A stretch of DNA of 64,000 bases from Desulfovibrionaceae bacterium (GTDB lineage Bacteria > Desulfobacterota > Desulfovibrionia > Desulfovibrionales > Desulfovibrionaceae), in assembly GCA_029008115.1 (NCBI GenBank), contig JAQXJC010000034.1, positions 1-64,000 on the forward strand. The letters are read 5' to 3'. The notes under the pieces were generated by a model. The model had not been told where the DNA came from. It saw only the letters and a program-made list of their open reading frames with translations, and searched no databases. Position 1 is the stretch's first letter, and each line of letters opens with the position of its first letter. Shown one piece after another: positions 2,428 to 29,000 of the stretch. Both the position numbers and the translations under genes were made by a program.

Positions 2428-5181
<2,754 letters not shown>

Positions 5182-5261: not shown

Positions 5262-6155
5262 ATGCCCCCAGAAGCCTCCGCCTTCTCTCCCGTTCTTGCC
5301 CCGGAATTTGCCAGCCTGCGGCACGCGCTGGCACGTCTGCGCAGTGCCCCGCCCCAGGTCATCCTGCTGGAAGGCGGGACGGAGGAGCAGCGTGTGGCGG
5401 CGGCGCGTTACTGGGCTGCCGTGCTCCACTGCCCGCAGGGGGAAGAAGCCCCCTGCCTGTCGTGCGGCGTCTGCACGCAAATCGGCGCCGGCGCGCATCT
5501 GGACGTGCTGGCCTACGACGGCCGCATCTCCAACAGGGAGGATGAGGAGAATCCCGGCCCGGTACGCGCCCTCACCATGGAGAACGTCCGCCAGCTCAAG
5601 GCCCGCCTGCGCGATGCGCCGCACGCGGACGCCAGGCGCGTGGTCATGCTGTACGGCCTGGGCCTCACGCGCGACGAGGCCGCCAATGCCCTGCTCAAGG
5701 CGCTGGAAGAACCCTCCGCCACCACGGTCTTTGTGCTGCTGGCCCCGCAGCGGGAGCAGCTGCTCCCCACGCTGGTATCCCGCTCCTGGGTCGTGACCCT
5801 GCCCTGGCCGGACACGGACGCCCGCGATCCGGCAACCGCCGGCTGGGAGGATGCGCTGGCCGGCTTCCTGCGCGACGGCACAGGCTGGCTGGACAGGACT
5901 TCCGCACGCGGTGCGCTGTCTCCGGCTCTGGCCGGCCATATTCTGCTGGCCTGCCAGAAATCGCTGGGGGCCGTCCTGCGCGGCGGCGGCACCGCCACGC
6001 CGCTGGCCCGGGCACTGGGCCGTCTGCCGCTGGAAGCCCAGTGCGGTGCGGCCTCGCTGATCGCCCGCGCACAGGAAGCCCTTGCCGCCAATGTCAGTCC
6101 AGCCCGCGTGCTGGACTGGCTGGCCATACGCCTGTTCGCCCTGGCGCACCCGTAG
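5262..6155 (+). CDS. holB: DNA polymerase III delta' subunit (clamp loader)
   Basis: The 297-residue protein belongs to the clamp-loader AAA+ family that opens the beta clamp encoded by dnaN further along. It carries the four-cysteine zinc module (LHCPQGEEAPCLSCGVC, residues about 55-71) and the family segment DEAANALLKALEEPSATTVFVLL at about 140-162, ending in the SRS box (LVSRSW). The P-loop is degenerate (LLEGGTEEQR), as is usual in delta', which does not hydrolyse ATP. It begins 80 bp after purA, behind a terminator, so it probably has its own promoter or relies on read-through. Annotation could equally be 'DnaX-like AAA'; the degenerate P-loop favours delta'. Confidence 0.85.
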   Translation: MPPEASAFSPVLAPEFASLRHALARLRSAPPQVILLEGGTEEQRVAAARYWAAVLHCPQGEEAPCLSCGVCTQIGAGAHLDVLAYDGRISNREDEENPGPVRALTMENVRQLKARLRDAPHADARRVVMLYGLGLTRDEAANALLKALEEPSATTVFVLLAPQREQLLPTLVSRSWVVTLPWPDTDARDPATAGWEDALAGFLRDGTGWLDRTSARGALSPALAGHILLACQKSLGAVLRGGGTATPLARALGRLPLEAQCGAASLIARAQEALAANVSPARVLDWLAIRLFALAHP

Positions 6156-6746: not shown

Positions 6747-7054
6747 CGGCACGCATTTCACTTTCTTTTTCAGCATATTCTGCTGACATCCGCACTGTTT
6801 TTGCACATTCCTTCAATGCCGGAGGCATGGCGAATTTCTGTTGCCATCATGGCCTTGAAGGTTCCCCTTCGCTGTGCCTGGGTACCGTTCCGCCCCGGAA
6901 GAAGCCCTGCGCACAACGTCTCCCCAGCATACAATCTTACATACCCCCTCTCATCACATGACGCCTGCCACTCCGGCAGCTCAGAACGCACCCTGCCGCC
7001 TCCATTCTCGCCATACAGATAAAAAAATATGTTATTACAGTGTAATAACAATAG

Positions 7055-8137
7055 TTACGCACATCGTTCAAACAGTATTACGCACATTCTCAGGCAACAT
7101 TCGTAGAGACTGTTCTGCATCATGGGAGATGATCCTGCCACGCATGTGCGGCAATCCCCCTTTCCATTCACAGTTTTGTACGCATTCTTTCCTCGCAACT
7201 TACGCAATACTGTGCGGCATCCCAGTATTACGAACATAAGGAACAGCCATCTCATAAAATAAATTATACAAATATTTTACAGTATTATATAACTTACGCA
7301 CAAAACATGCCGATTTTCTGTCACTAAAGTACCCCGGGCAGAATGACAGGGAGCGCGCTACACCACGTATCCCCCGCCTTTTCTGCCGTGCTGCCGGCAC
7401 GGATTCAGAAATTCCTGCGCAAATCACAATATTACGCACATTCTTTACAAAAATACATCTTTTCGCAAAAAGATATATTATTTCAGTATGATATATAACT
7501 TACGAACATTTTTTCGACAGAACAATACACAATTACCACAGCAGCGGCCAGCTTCAGGCATGCGAGCCCCGGTAGGGAACGCCTGCGGATGCCGGAACAT
7601 TGCCTGGGCAGCTCTCGTCATGTACATGCCAGTGATCAGGGAGCGCGCTGCACTACGTATCCCCCGCCTTTTCTGCCGTACTGCCGGCGGGGATTCAGAA
7701 ATTCCTGCGCACGTCACAATATTACGCACATTCGTTACAAATATATACTCTTTCATAAAAAGACATATTATTTCAATATGATATACAATTTACGAACATT
7801 TTTTCGACAGAATAATGCACAAATGCCACAGTAGCGGCCTGTTTCAGGCATGCGAGCCCCGGTAGGGAACGCCTGTGAATGTCGGAAAACATTGCCTGGG
7901 CAGCTCTCGTCATGTACATGCCAGCGATCAGAGAGCGCGCTGCACCACGCATCCCCCCGCCATTTCTGCCGTGCTGCCGGCACGGATTCAGAAATTCCTG
8001 CGCAAGTCACAATATTACGCACATTCTTTACAAAAATACATCTTTTCGCAAAAAGATATATTATTTCAGTACGATATATAACTTACGAACATTTTTTCGA
8101 CAGAACAATGCACAATTGCCATACTATGCGATTACGC
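7055..8137 (+). promoter_or_regulatory. Array of twelve TTACG(C/A) motifs, all in one orientation
   Basis: Copies start at 7055, 7078, 7200, 7228, 7294, 7432, 7500, 7722, 7790, 8015, 8083 and 8132. Most extend to TTACGCACA or TTACGAACA. Inside the tandem units the pair spacing is constant at 68 bp. The arrangement looks like an iteron or operator array; what binds is unknown. The motif differs from the DnaA box TTATCCACA at two central positions. Confidence 0.55.
7351..8120. repeat. Tandem 290-292 bp repeat, about 2.6 copies
   Basis: Unit A is 7351-7640, unit B is 7641-7932 and a partial unit C is 7933-8120, each beginning GAGCGCGCT. Each unit has a GC-rich half (CCCCCGCC, a CCGTGC/GCACGG hairpin in A and C, then GATTCAGAAATTCCTGCGCA) and an AT-rich half that carries ATTACGCACATTC and, 68 bases on, TTACGAACATTTTTTCGAC. 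The units differ by scattered substitutions and a few one- or two-base indels, so the array is not brand-new. More diverged copies of the AT-rich half extend left to about 7022. Confidence 0.9.
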
Positions 8138-8269: not shown

Positions 8270-9946
8270 TTACTTCTTGTATGCCGCGCCCGTAGCAGCG
8301 GAGCTGACCAGCTTGGCGTAGCGCTTCAGGAAGGGCGAAGCCACCGTCTTGTCCGGTGCGACGTAGGCAGCGCGGCGGGCGGCCAGTTCCTCTTCGCTGA
8401 CAAGCAGGTTCAGCACGCGATTGGGAATGTCGATGAGGATTTTGTCACCGTCGCGCACCAGCCCGATGACGCCGCCGTCCGCGGCTTCGGGGGAGATATG
8501 GCCTATGGCCGCGCCATTGGTGCCGCCGGAGAAGCGGCCGTCGGTGAGCAGGGCCACATCCTTGCCCAGTCCCATGCCGGTGATGGCGGCGGTGGGGGAG
8601 AGCATCTCGCGCATGCCCGGGCCGCCGCGGGGGCCTTCATAGCGGATGACCACGGCATCGCCGGGCTTGATTTTGCCGTCCAGAATGGCGCGCATGGCGT
8701 CTTCCTCGGATTCAAATACGCAGGCGGACACCTCGCGGCACATCATTTCAGGAGCCACGGCGGACTGCTTCACCACCGCGCCCTGCGGCGCCAGCGAGCC
8801 CCGCAGAATGGCGATGCCGCCCTGGGCGGAGTAGGCCTTGTCCACGGGATGGATGACATTTTCGTCCAGAATGCGCGCATCCAGCTCCCTGAGATTTTCT
8901 CCCACGGTCTTGCCGGTGACGGTCATGCAGTCTTCATGGATGCAGCCCAGCCTGGACAGCTCCGCCATGACGGCGGGAATGCCGCCAGCGCGGTGCAAAT
9001 CCACCATATGATCCTTGCCGGCAGGGGAAAGCTTGCACAGATTGGGCGTCCTGCGGCTGACTTCGTCAAAAATATCCAGCGAGAGATTCAGGCCGGCTTC
9101 TCCGAACACGGCAGGCAGGTGCAGCACCGTATTGGTGGAGCAGCCCAGGGCCATGTCCACGGCCACGGCATTGGACACGGCTTCCTTCGTCACAATGTCC
9201 AGCGGGCGGATGCCGCGCTTCAGCATTTCCATGACCTGCATGCCGGCCTTCTTGGCCAGACGGATGCGGGCGGCGCCATTGGCCGGCGTGGTGCCGTTGC
9301 CGGGCAGGGCCACGCCCACGGTTTCGGCCAGGCAGTTCATGGAATTGGCCGTAAACATGCCGGCGCAGGAGCCGCAGCCGGGGCAGGCGTTCTCGGCCAG
9401 CTTTTCCAGCTCGGCCTCGCTCATGTCCCCGCGGCCCACGCGGCCCACGCCTTCAAAGACCGTGATGAGGTCGGCCTTGCCATGCGGGCCGTCAAAGCCG
9501 GGCATCATGGGGCCGCCGCTGACCAGAACAGAGGGAATGTTCAGGCGCATCATGGCCATCAGCATGCCGGGCACGCACTTGTCGCAGTTGGGAATGAACA
9601 CCAGAGCGTCAAAGGCGTGGGCACGGGCCATAATTTCAATGGAGTCCGCGATAATTTCGCGCGACGGCAGGGAGAAGCGCATGCCCTCGTGGTTCATGGC
9701 CAGGCCGTCGCAGACGGCGATGGCGGGAAACTCCAGCGGCGTGCCGCCGGCCATGCGCACGCCGGCCTTGGCCGCCTCGGCCAGACGATCCAGATGAATA
9801 TGGCCGGGCACCACTTCATTGGCCGCATTGACGATGCCCACCAGGGGGCGGCTGATTTCTTCCTTCGTCAGTCCCAGCGCATACAGCAGGGAACGGTGCG
9901 GGGCCTTTTCCAGCCCCTCTTTCATTTTTCCGCTGCGGAGTTCCAT
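8270..9946 (-). CDS. ilvD: Dihydroxy-acid dehydratase
   Basis: Dehydrates 2,3-dihydroxy-isovalerate and -methylvalerate in valine, leucine and isoleucine synthesis; an iron-sulfur enzyme of the cytosol. The 558 residues match the family length. Cluster-binding motifs are visible: NCDKCVPG (Cys121, Cys124) and [16 protein letters not shown] (Cys188, Cys191, Cys194), followed by the family block [12 protein letters not shown]. The start at 9946 ([11 protein letters not shown]) fits the family; a GTG four codons upstream (9958) is the alternative. Only 36 bp separate it from the upstream M23 peptidase gene, so they may be cotranscribed, although their functions do not connect. Confidence 0.96.
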
Positions 9947-9982
9947 ACCTTGAAACACTCCAGGTAAAATGGTGAAAAAACG

Positions 9983-11287: not shown

Positions 11288-11737
11288 AACGTTGCGTACC
11301 CGGGCTGCGGGAGGTGAAGAGGTTAGCCCGGCTCACGTCTTTTGTCCAGCGCACCGCCCCTCTCCGCCTGCCCCGCCGGTATGACCATGAATACTTGTTT
11401 AGCGGCATGAAATATGCTAACTTTCTTCGTTCGGAAGCCGTTGCGGCACAGGGATTTCCGACAGAAATTCCCGGCTGCCGGCCCCCTGCCGGGGAAGAGC
11501 GGCCTTCGCAAGAATATCATGTTATGTTCCGCATAGTTACGCATGTTGCGCACATATCTGGCAACAAAAACGGTGCAGAAGTGACAGCGGGGAACATCCG
11601 CACGGCCAGCCGACGGCCCCCTGTGCGTGACGTTCCCTGGATGTTCCCTGATATGTTCCCAAAAAAGTCAACAACCGCACGATGTTATACAAGATAGTAA
11701 CAAAGGGACAGCCCTATAAATTACAATAGGAAGAACT
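11288..11737. promoter_or_regulatory. Intergenic region upstream of dnaN with repeated ATGTTCC motifs
   Basis: This 450-bp divergent gap has no gene. It holds ATGTTCCG at 11524, GGGAACAT (the inverse) at 11590-11597, CGTTCCC at 11631, ATGTTCCC at 11641 and again at 11653-11660. The last three are spaced 10 and 12 bp apart, roughly a helical turn, as in operators. One TTACGCATG copy of the repeat-island motif lies at 11537. A weak -10 (TTATAC, about 11683) precedes the dnaN ribosome site. I see no canonical DnaA box, so an origin cannot be claimed. Confidence 0.5.
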
Positions 11738-15297
<3,560 letters not shown>

Positions 15298-15360: not shown

Positions 15361-17856
15361 GTGTCCGAACAGCAGCAAGTCAACATTGAAAAAGAGCTGC
15401 GCAAGTCGTATCTCGAATATTCGCTTTCGGTCATCATTGGCCGTGCCATTCCCGATGCCCGGGACGGCCTGAAGCCCGTGCACCGGCGCATCATGTTCGC
15501 GCAGCACGAGCTGGCCAACAGCTACAACCGGGCTCCCAAGAAATCCGCGCGCATCGTCGGTGATGTCATCGGTAAGTATCATCCGCATGGCGATACGGCC
15601 GTGTATGATGCGCTGGTGCGCATGGCGCAGGATTTTTCCATGCGCGATCCCCTGGTCATCGGGCAGGGGAACTTCGGCTCCATTGACGGCGACGCGGCCG
15701 CCGCCATGCGATACACGGAAGTCCGCATGTCCCGGCTGGCCGGCGAGTTCCTGGCCGACATAGACAAGGAGACGGTGGACTTCCGGCCCAACTATGACAA
15801 TACCCTTCAGGAACCTTCGGTGCTGCCCACCAGAGTGCCCAACTTGCTCCTGAACGGTTCTTCCGGCATTGCCGTGGGCATGGCCACCAACATTCCGCCG
15901 CACAACCTTGGCGAGCTGTCGGACGCGCTGCTGCACCTGCTGGATCATCCGCAGTGCTCCGTGGATGATCTGATGGAATACGTGCAGGGGCCGGACTTCC
16001 CCACCTGCGGCTTCGTCTATGCGGGGCAGGGCCTGAGCGATGCCTATCACACCGGGCGCGGCACCGTGAAGGTGCGCGGGCGCGTGGACGTGGAGGCGCG
16101 CGGCAAGGATTTGCACTGCGTGGTGATCAGGGAAATTCCCTACGGGCTTAATAAGTCCGTGCTGGTGGAAAAGATTGCGGCTCTGGTCAATGAGCGCAAG
16201 ATTGACGGCGTGGTGGATCTGCGCGACGAGTCCGATCGCAAGGGCATCCGCGTGGTGGTCGATCTCAAGCGCGGCACCATTCCCGACATTGTCATCAACG
16301 CGCTGTACAAATATACCCCTCTGGAATCCAGCTTCGGCATCAACATGCTGGCCGTGGTGGACAACCGCCCGCAGCTGCTGAATCTGAAAAGCGCCCTGGT
16401 CTGCTTCATGGATCACCGTCGCGAGGTGGTCATCCGCCGCACGCGCTTTGATCTGCGCAGGGCGGAGGCCCGCGCCCATATTCTGGAGGGTCTGCGCAAG
16501 GCCATTGACAATATTGACGAGGTGGTGGCGCTGATCCGCGCTTCCGGCAGCCCCGATGACGCGCGCAGCGCGCTCATGGAGCGCTTTGCCTTCTCCGAGG
16601 CGCAGGCCCGCGCCATTCTGGACATGCGCCTCCAGCGCCTCACCGGCCTTCAGCGCGGCGAGCTGGAAGCGGAACACCGTGAGCTGCTCCAGAAGATTGC
16701 ATTCTTTCATGCCATCCTGGAGGACCCCACGGTGCTGCGCAGCGAACTGCGCAGGGAAATTGAGGAAATCAAGGCATCCTTTGCCACGCCCCGCCGCACG
16801 GAAGTGCTGCGCGAGGCGCTGGGGGATATCGACATCGAAGACCTCATCCCCGATGAAGAGGTGGTGGTCACGCTGTCGCGGCGCGGCTACATGAAGCGCA
16901 CCACGCTGGACAACTACCAGCAGCAGAAGCGCGGCGGCAAGGGCATCGCGGCCCTGCACACCTCTGACGATGACTACGTGCAGGAATTCCTGACAACGAC
17001 AAATCACCAGTACCTGCTGCTCTTTACCAACAAGGGACGCATGCACCAGATGAAGGCGCATCAGGTGCCCGAGGGCAGCCGCACGGCCAGGGGCGTGCAT
17101 ATCAACAACCTCCTGCCCGCGCTGGAAGAGGGCGAATGGGTCACCACCGTGCTGGCGGTGCGCGAGTTTGCGGAGGACAAGTATTTCCTCTTTGTGACAA
17201 GGCGCGGCATGGTGAAGCGCTCCTCCGCCTCGCTGTATGCGCGCTGCCGCAAGACGGGCCTTATCGCCGTGGGCCTGCGCGAGGATGACGAGCTCGTGGT
17301 GGTGCGCCCCGTGCGCGAGAGCAGCCATATTGTGCTGGCCACGGCCAGCGGGCTGTCCATTCGTTTCTCCTGCGAGGACGTGCGCCCCATGGGGCGTTCC
17401 GCCACGGGGGTGAAGGGCATTGCGCTGGGTATGAACGATTATGTGGTGGCCTGCGTCATTCTCAAGCCGGAGGATCAGTCCACAGAGATCATGTCCGTTT
17501 CCGCCAAGGGCTTTGGCAAGCGCACGCGGGTGGACCTGTACCGCCTGCAAAGCCGCGGCGGCAAGGGGATCATCAACTTCAAGGTAATGAATCGCACGGG
17601 CGCGGTCATCGGGGCCATGCCTGTGCGGGACACCGACGGTCTGGTCATGCTGACCTCCGCCAATAAGATTGTACGCATTGGCGTGGAGGATGTGCGTTCC
17701 AAGGGGCGCGCCACCATGGGCGTGATGCTTGTCCGTCTGGACGAGGGCGCCACGGTGGTGGGCTTCGACAGGGTGGACGAAGGCGGGCAGTCCCTGCGGC
17801 TGGATGATGCGGGCGACGATGCGCCGGCAGCGCCGAAGCCGGAGGATGGCAGGTAG
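15361..17856 (+). CDS. gyrA: DNA gyrase subunit A
   Basis: DNA-cleaving subunit of gyrase. The protein has 831 residues and starts with GTG ([20 protein letters not shown]), preceded by GAGG. The active-site tyrosine lies in [15 protein letters not shown], at residue 118. The C-terminal beta-pinwheel begins after about residue 500 and carries the GyrA box KRGGKGI near 523-529, needed for DNA wrapping and so distinguishing gyrase from topoisomerase IV. The quinolone region reads [15 protein letters not shown] terminator follows, so gyrA is probably the last gene of the dnaN-gyrB-gyrA operon. Confidence 0.98.
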
Positions 17857-28984: not shown

Positions 28985-29000
28985 TGTTTCACGTGAAACA
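28985..29000. other. parS centromere site
   Basis: TGTTTCACGTGAAACA is a perfect 16-bp palindrome and matches the bacterial parS consensus (TGTTNCACGTGAAACA) exactly. It lies 28 bp upstream of the chosen parA start, so ParB bound here could also repress parA. Confidence 0.95.

Follow-up and report, generated by a model that had tools for sequence, protein, structure and literature searches.

A tandem array of DnaA-box-like modules near dnaN–gyrBA as the probable chromosomal replication origin of a Desulfovibrionaceae bacterium

Introduction

Why should a chromosome carry a block of tandem repeats of some 290 bp in an AT-rich gap between a flavin-protein gene and ilvD? The locus lies in a 64-kb stretch of DNA from a Desulfovibrionaceae bacterium, the whole of which was analysed and is referred to here as the window. 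A sequence-only reading had described the repeats and proposed three candidate roles for them: a replication or maintenance locus, a family of small RNAs, or a regulator sink. It had also found no explanation for the repeats in the annotated genes; this is true of the genes on either side, but a context is provided by dnaN, gyrB, gyrA and parAB further on. Here, the repeats, the short motifs within and around them, the neighbouring genes, the equivalent loci of relatives and the DnaA proteins were analysed together.

Results

Tandem Repeats Finder detected a single array in the window (7347–8121), with a period of 290, 2.7 copies, 88% matches and a score of 1292, and a repeat search of the window returned copies spaced by 290 and 293 bp (Table 1). 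Both analyses showed that the tandem repeats, previously sized at 290–292 bp, are real, with a unit of 290–293 bp. Alignment with MAFFT confirmed that there are two full copies and one partial copy, the third consisting of the first part and the AT-rich part and ending where the downstream GC-rich part starts. Each copy contains TTACGCACA, then ~59 bp of very AT-rich DNA and then TTACGAACA, and the copies have diverged at numerous sites and differ by 3 bp in length. The surrounding gap was located correctly by the sequence-only reading and measures ~1.5 kb rather than 1.4 kb, from the end of a NimA/PNPOx-like flavin-protein gene (6746), which stands after purA and holB, to the end of ilvD (8270). 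The search for further copies that had been proposed was carried out, and the unit was found neither a second time in the 1.88-Mb, 52-contig genome nor, by DNA comparison, in 58 relatives. In addition, the units of 290 bp, the lack of an inverted repeat in the gap and the lack of a tRNA in the window agreed with the view that the repeats are not a transposon end, a CRISPR array or a tRNA cluster.

A motif scan identified ten TTACG[C/A]ACA sites within 1,037 bp of the gap (7055–8091), all on the + strand, TTACGCACA at six sites and TTACGAACA at four. Genome-wide, TTACGMACA occurs 15 times in 1.88 Mb, and 10 of these 15 sites are those of the gap. Moreover, the densest 1 kb of the window held nine near-matches, compared with three at most for 40 permuted motifs. 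Because four of the 9-mers stand singly upstream of the array, the feature starts near 7050 and not at 7351, a position that had been given as the start and that is close to the beginning of the array itself.

Compared with the E. coli consensus TTWTNCACA, TTACGCACA has one mismatch and TTACGAACA has two, and weak sites in known origins also deviate by two from this consensus (PMC6052347, PMC10797057). Both TTACGCACA and TTACGAACA would escape a search that allows one mismatch from TTATCCACA, the criterion applied in PMC4403523. From their resemblance to the consensus and their recurrence at the same place in relatives, we infer that the 9-mers of the gap are putative DnaA boxes. The canonical TTWTNCACA was also tried as an origin marker and rejected; it has 98 sites, one of them at the gap edge (6799), which are scattered over the genome and therefore point nowhere.

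The stability of the duplex was evaluated using a nearest-neighbour scan. Of all 60-bp stretches in the window, the four with the lowest stability are at 7735, 7236, 7442 and 8025; every one of them lies between two of the 9-mers, and these AT-rich segments beside the boxes are listed as candidate unwinding elements (DUE) in Table 1. In the DnaA-trio basal unwinding system, repeated 3'-GAT-5' trinucleotides lie ~10–13 bp from a box. The general N-A-N pattern of this system (PMC8287927) would match such AT-rich DNA trivially.

Table 1. Features of the candidate origin and its surroundings (window coordinates; stability ranks refer to the window)
Feature	Position	Strand	Remark
holB (DNA polymerase III delta')	5262–6155	+	left neighbourhood
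Candidate oriC core, ten same-orientation DnaA-box-like 9-mers	7055–8091	+	10 of 15 genome sites
Putative box TTACGCACA	7055–7063	+	motif scan
Putative box TTACGCACA	7078–7086	+	motif scan
Putative box TTACGAACA	7228–7236	+	motif scan
Candidate DUE, upstream module	7237–7293		second least stable, dG -63.3
Putative box TTACGCACA	7294–7302	+	motif scan
Tandem unit copy 1	7347–7636	+	290 bp
Putative box TTACGCACA, copy 1	7432–7440	+	motif scan
Candidate DUE, copy 1	7441–7499		third least stable, dG -64.2
Putative box TTACGAACA, copy 1	7500–7508	+	motif scan
Tandem unit copy 2	7637–7929	+	293 bp
Putative box TTACGCACA, copy 2	7722–7730	+	motif scan
Candidate DUE, copy 2	7731–7789		least stable, dG -62.6
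Putative box TTACGAACA, copy 2	7790–7798	+	motif scan
Tandem unit copy 3	7930–8121	+	partial, without downstream GC-rich part
Putative box TTACGCACA, copy 3	8015–8023	+	motif scan
Candidate DUE, copy 3	8024–8082		fourth least stable, dG -65.5
Putative box TTACGAACA, copy 3	8083–8091	+	motif scan
ilvD, right border of gap	8270–9958	-	gene annotation
M23–dnaN gap, without dnaA	11288–11737		position of the dnaN-linked dnaA in relatives
dnaN, first of dnaN–gyrB–gyrA	11738–12889	+	gene annotation
Perfect parS (TGTTTCACGTGAAACA) by parA/parB	28985–29000	+	motif match

The gap lies near dnaN, gyrB/gyrA and parS/parAB. The dnaN–gyrB–gyrA genes begin 3.6 kb from it, with gyrB at 12889 and gyrA at 15361, and parB and parA (26.7–29.0 kb), together with parS, are found at a distance of 21 kb. 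Skew was followed within the window, the genome consisting of 52 unordered contigs. It was negative on the left and rose to the right, with cumulative minima at 13,018 (GC), 8,142 (purine) and 17,118 (keto); the GC skew was weak, and the third-codon-position GC skew was too mixed for use. Skew thus sets the origin within ~8–17 kb, which is compatible with the gap and makes no choice between the gap and the dnaN region.

To compare relatives, a scan with the dnaN of the window was performed, which yielded 21 Desulfovibrionaceae-type loci and one distant match. The sister species (locus L071, genome G001), whose dnaN is 79% identical, has the same order purA–holB–gap–ilvD–M23, and its gap contains TTACGCACA, TTACGCACA and TTATGCACA, spaced by 156 and 148 bp, with TTATACACA after them. 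Ahead of each of the first three boxes lies a stretch that ranks among the least stable in that locus, and apart from the boxes little of the sister gap aligns with the gap of the window. On a different branch, L055, L057 and L060 have an AT-rich island upstream of M23 that holds these 9-mers, again on the same strand. Clusters of the 9-mer recur in the corresponding AT-rich gap in both the sister and three other Desulfovibrionaceae, in surroundings whose sequence is hardly conserved. Furthermore, sites were found just upstream of dnaN in G008, G014 and G017, the cluster in G008 lying 55–950 bp upstream.

Motif discovery by word count in the islands of five relatives, with the window left out, ranked TTACGCACA first (19 occurrences vs. 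2.2 expected, in five of five islands). As these islands had been partly picked by the motif itself, the scan was repeated locus-wide as a cleaner test. The density in L055, L060, L071 and L092 (G008) was reached by none of 40 permuted motifs, and the smaller clusters in L057, L085 (G014) and L095 (G017) were equalled by 2 of 40. The TTACGCACA cluster was absent in most of the 30 other loci scanned, which may use other box sequences or have their origins beyond the DNA sampled. Box sequence or origin position therefore varies within the Desulfovibrionaceae. Other central dinucleotides, tried in the remaining loci, revealed a small TTAGG[CA]ACA cluster in G010 and otherwise no clear cluster. 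Box pairs at 35–65 bp spacing were not found in the relatives and are present here only, indicating that the exact box spacing is species-specific. The genome of G001 contains 34 exact copies of the 9-mer, which is therefore not origin-specific there.

Most relatives (L053–L073) have a TT[AG]nn[ACG]ACA 9-mer at a nearly fixed place 40–60 bp upstream of dnaN, the central bases of which vary per lineage (TTGGCAACA, TTAAGCACA, TTATACACA, TTACGAACA and TTAGGAACA); this 9-mer is perhaps a fast-changing DnaA box. A separate locus, L099 (G005:C15), carries two TTACGAACA sites 157 bp apart, at 3489 and 3646, in AT-rich DNA, and the first 9 kb of this contig contain none of the origin-region genes of the window. 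It is possible that the region of this pair is the origin island of G005.

Most of the Desulfovibrionaceae compared have two DnaA proteins, one encoded between M23 and dnaN (DnaA1) and one divergent (DnaA2), and in each of the 20 loci of relatives searched (L053–L072), the end of a dnaA ORF lies immediately before dnaN. The sister species has kept both types. The single DnaA of this genome is of the divergent type and its gene adjoins ruvB (L017 964–2523, - strand; G000:C4); its ATPase, HTH and N-terminal domains were all detected. The second, ruvB-type DnaA is also the only one in G008, a relative of 1.5 Mb with a listed completeness of 100%. A search of the 450-bp M23–dnaN gap for a dnaA remnant gave no alignment to the sister's DnaA1 better than E 0.79, and sequence alignable with the sister is confined to the final ~60 bp leading up to and including the dnaN start. 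In this lineage, the dnaA linked to dnaN was lost by deletion.

Alignment of the two types showed the HTH signature F-NRRHSTV in the second type vs. FGGKDHSTV in the first. At the box-VII (arginine-finger) position, this genome and its sister have SHF instead of SRF/SRL; the residue is Cys in G022 and G020 and Arg in G003, G007, G008, G014 and G019. Domain matches from one pair of proteins gave a stronger HTH and a weaker ATPase for the first type and the reverse for the second, which, together with motif changes seen in more of the proteins, suggests a division of labour between the two types. The promoter of the sole dnaA was also searched for a box; the locus showed no match except one one-mismatch site, ~1.6 kb beyond the sampled end of ruvB.

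Discussion

A cluster of boxes far denser than in the rest of the genome, the least stable DNA of the window between these boxes, proximity to dnaN–gyrBA and parS, and a position conserved in relatives are all expected of oriC. We therefore consider it very probable that the gap, from ~7050 to 8121, is the chromosomal origin, which makes the previously suggested replication or maintenance locus specific. In this model, the single ruvB-linked DnaA would bind the head-to-tail TTACGCACA sites, which look stronger, and the TTACGAACA sites, which are candidate weak sites, and would assemble along the array; at least one of the AT-rich inter-box segments would then melt, the helicase would be loaded there, and the locus would act as the origin in the cell. 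The 290-bp repeats would have arisen by tandem duplication of a module of box, AT segment, box and GC-rich spacer, followed by divergence. The His at box VII of the sole DnaA needs explaining for an active initiator and counts against this reading.

The boxes found beside dnaN in relatives raise the possibility that the array lies near the true origin rather than being it. In that case, the true origin would be in the dnaA1–dnaN region (here the M23–dnaN gap), and the repeats would form a datA- or DARS-like cluster for DnaA titration or reactivation that tunes, and does not start, initiation. G014, G017 and G010 have similar boxes in the dnaA1–dnaN gap and not in the upstream island, and the sister species has boxes in both places. 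The M23–dnaN gap of this genome itself retains a single near-match at 11546 (TTGCGCACA) as well as two unstable stretches, at 11644 and 11714. However, it contains no exact box, these stretches rank below the four of the island, and a titration site would not require the least stable DNA of the window between its boxes; we regard this explanation as unlikely. The array could also consist of operators for another DNA-binding protein, unconnected to replication, as the proposal of a regulator sink implies, since regulator arrays would typically take the form of same-orientation direct 9-mer repeats as well. Yet the 9-mer agrees with the DnaA-box pattern and recurs in relatives, beside dnaN in G008, G014 and G017 and within the syntenic gap in the sister. 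Moreover, no gene start adjoins the array to be controlled, as the PNPOx gene ends before the array and ilvD ends at it. A regulator sink accounts less well than an origin for the location near dnaN, the instability of the DNA and the conservation of position, and is very improbable.

The species-specific unit, and the fact that iterons likewise are same-strand repeats near unstable DNA, would suit a family of small RNAs, a mobile-element remnant, the iterons of an integrated plasmid or an assembly artefact. A scan of the whole window against Rfam 15, however, gave no match, and the GC-rich half, which had been described as hairpin-bearing, folded as RNA on either strand no more stably than shuffled sequences (z +0.3 to +1.9, none negative). 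Terminator-like sites in the gap were no commoner than in shuffles and promoter-like sites only modestly commoner; with a unit that is not conserved in relatives, these results spoke against the small-RNA role. Four ORFs of the gap that were tested, taken from mechanical ORF lists, had no match in Pfam, and the neighbours are housekeeping genes. The unit occurs at a single locus in copies that differ at many positions, and the assembly of the repeat has no bearing on the 9-mers that lie outside the array or in relatives, so that a mobile or assembly-derived unit, the outcome that the sequence-only reading had set against itself, gained no support. The chance that any of these explanations applies appears slight in the extreme.

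With the gap taken as oriC, the lineage may have passed through a transition in which DnaA1 was lost, replication came to depend on DnaA2 with its changed HTH and Arg-to-His replacement, and the origin was amplified to three modules with a lineage-specific box, perhaps offsetting a weaker initiator; we put this forward tentatively, as a scenario less likely to be right than wrong. If the oriC assignment is true, it places the origin in the Desulfovibrionaceae, for which the open literature gave no origin study, and explains why finders seeking TTATCCACA with one mismatch beside dnaA would miss it. It would also provide a natural experiment, as the sister species contrast in whether one of two DnaA proteins was lost and whether an origin module was amplified in tandem. 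The response of box sequence, box number and unwinding elements to a changed initiator would thereby become open to testing. In the open literature, we found no description of Desulfovibrionaceae origins or of such tandem origin modules, which is weak evidence of novelty as subscription papers were mostly outside the scope of the search.

The locus is probably a known kind of element, a chromosomal origin, whose form is unusual: its modules stand in tandem, its box is specific to the lineage, and the only DnaA is divergent and unlinked to it. Like the DnaA-box origins of E. coli, B. subtilis, Campylobacter jejuni and other Epsilonproteobacteria (PMC6052347, PMC5043019), it has clustered, oriented 9-mers resembling TTWTNCACA, arranged head to tail, with AT-rich unstable DNA beside the boxes and dnaN–gyrB and parS nearby. 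In contrast to the origins of E. coli, B. subtilis and Campylobacter, the box is TTACG[C/A]ACA (C at position 4, C or A at position 6), the box/AT/box module stands in a 290-bp tandem with four unstable segments instead of one, and the array has no adjoining dnaA, lying ~3.6 kb from dnaN across ilvD and M23. The origin of Caulobacter crescentus (hemE side; named in PMC4403523) is likewise not directly beside dnaA, whereas here the dnaN-linked dnaA was deleted, dnaN–gyrBA stayed by the origin and a divergent dnaA paralogue is located by ruvB. As in Thermotoga maritima, whose oriC (PMC10316083) has the boxes AAACCTACCACC (PMC10797057), the HTH signature of DnaA is one residue shorter (FNR.H, aligned) and the box differs from that of E. 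coli; the two boxes differ in sequence and length, and the box here stays close to TTWTNCACA. Plasmid iteron origins share the same-strand direct repeats with AT-rich DNA, whereas the locus described here has a chromosomal housekeeping context, no flanking rep gene, DnaA-like boxes and no regular 20-bp spacing.
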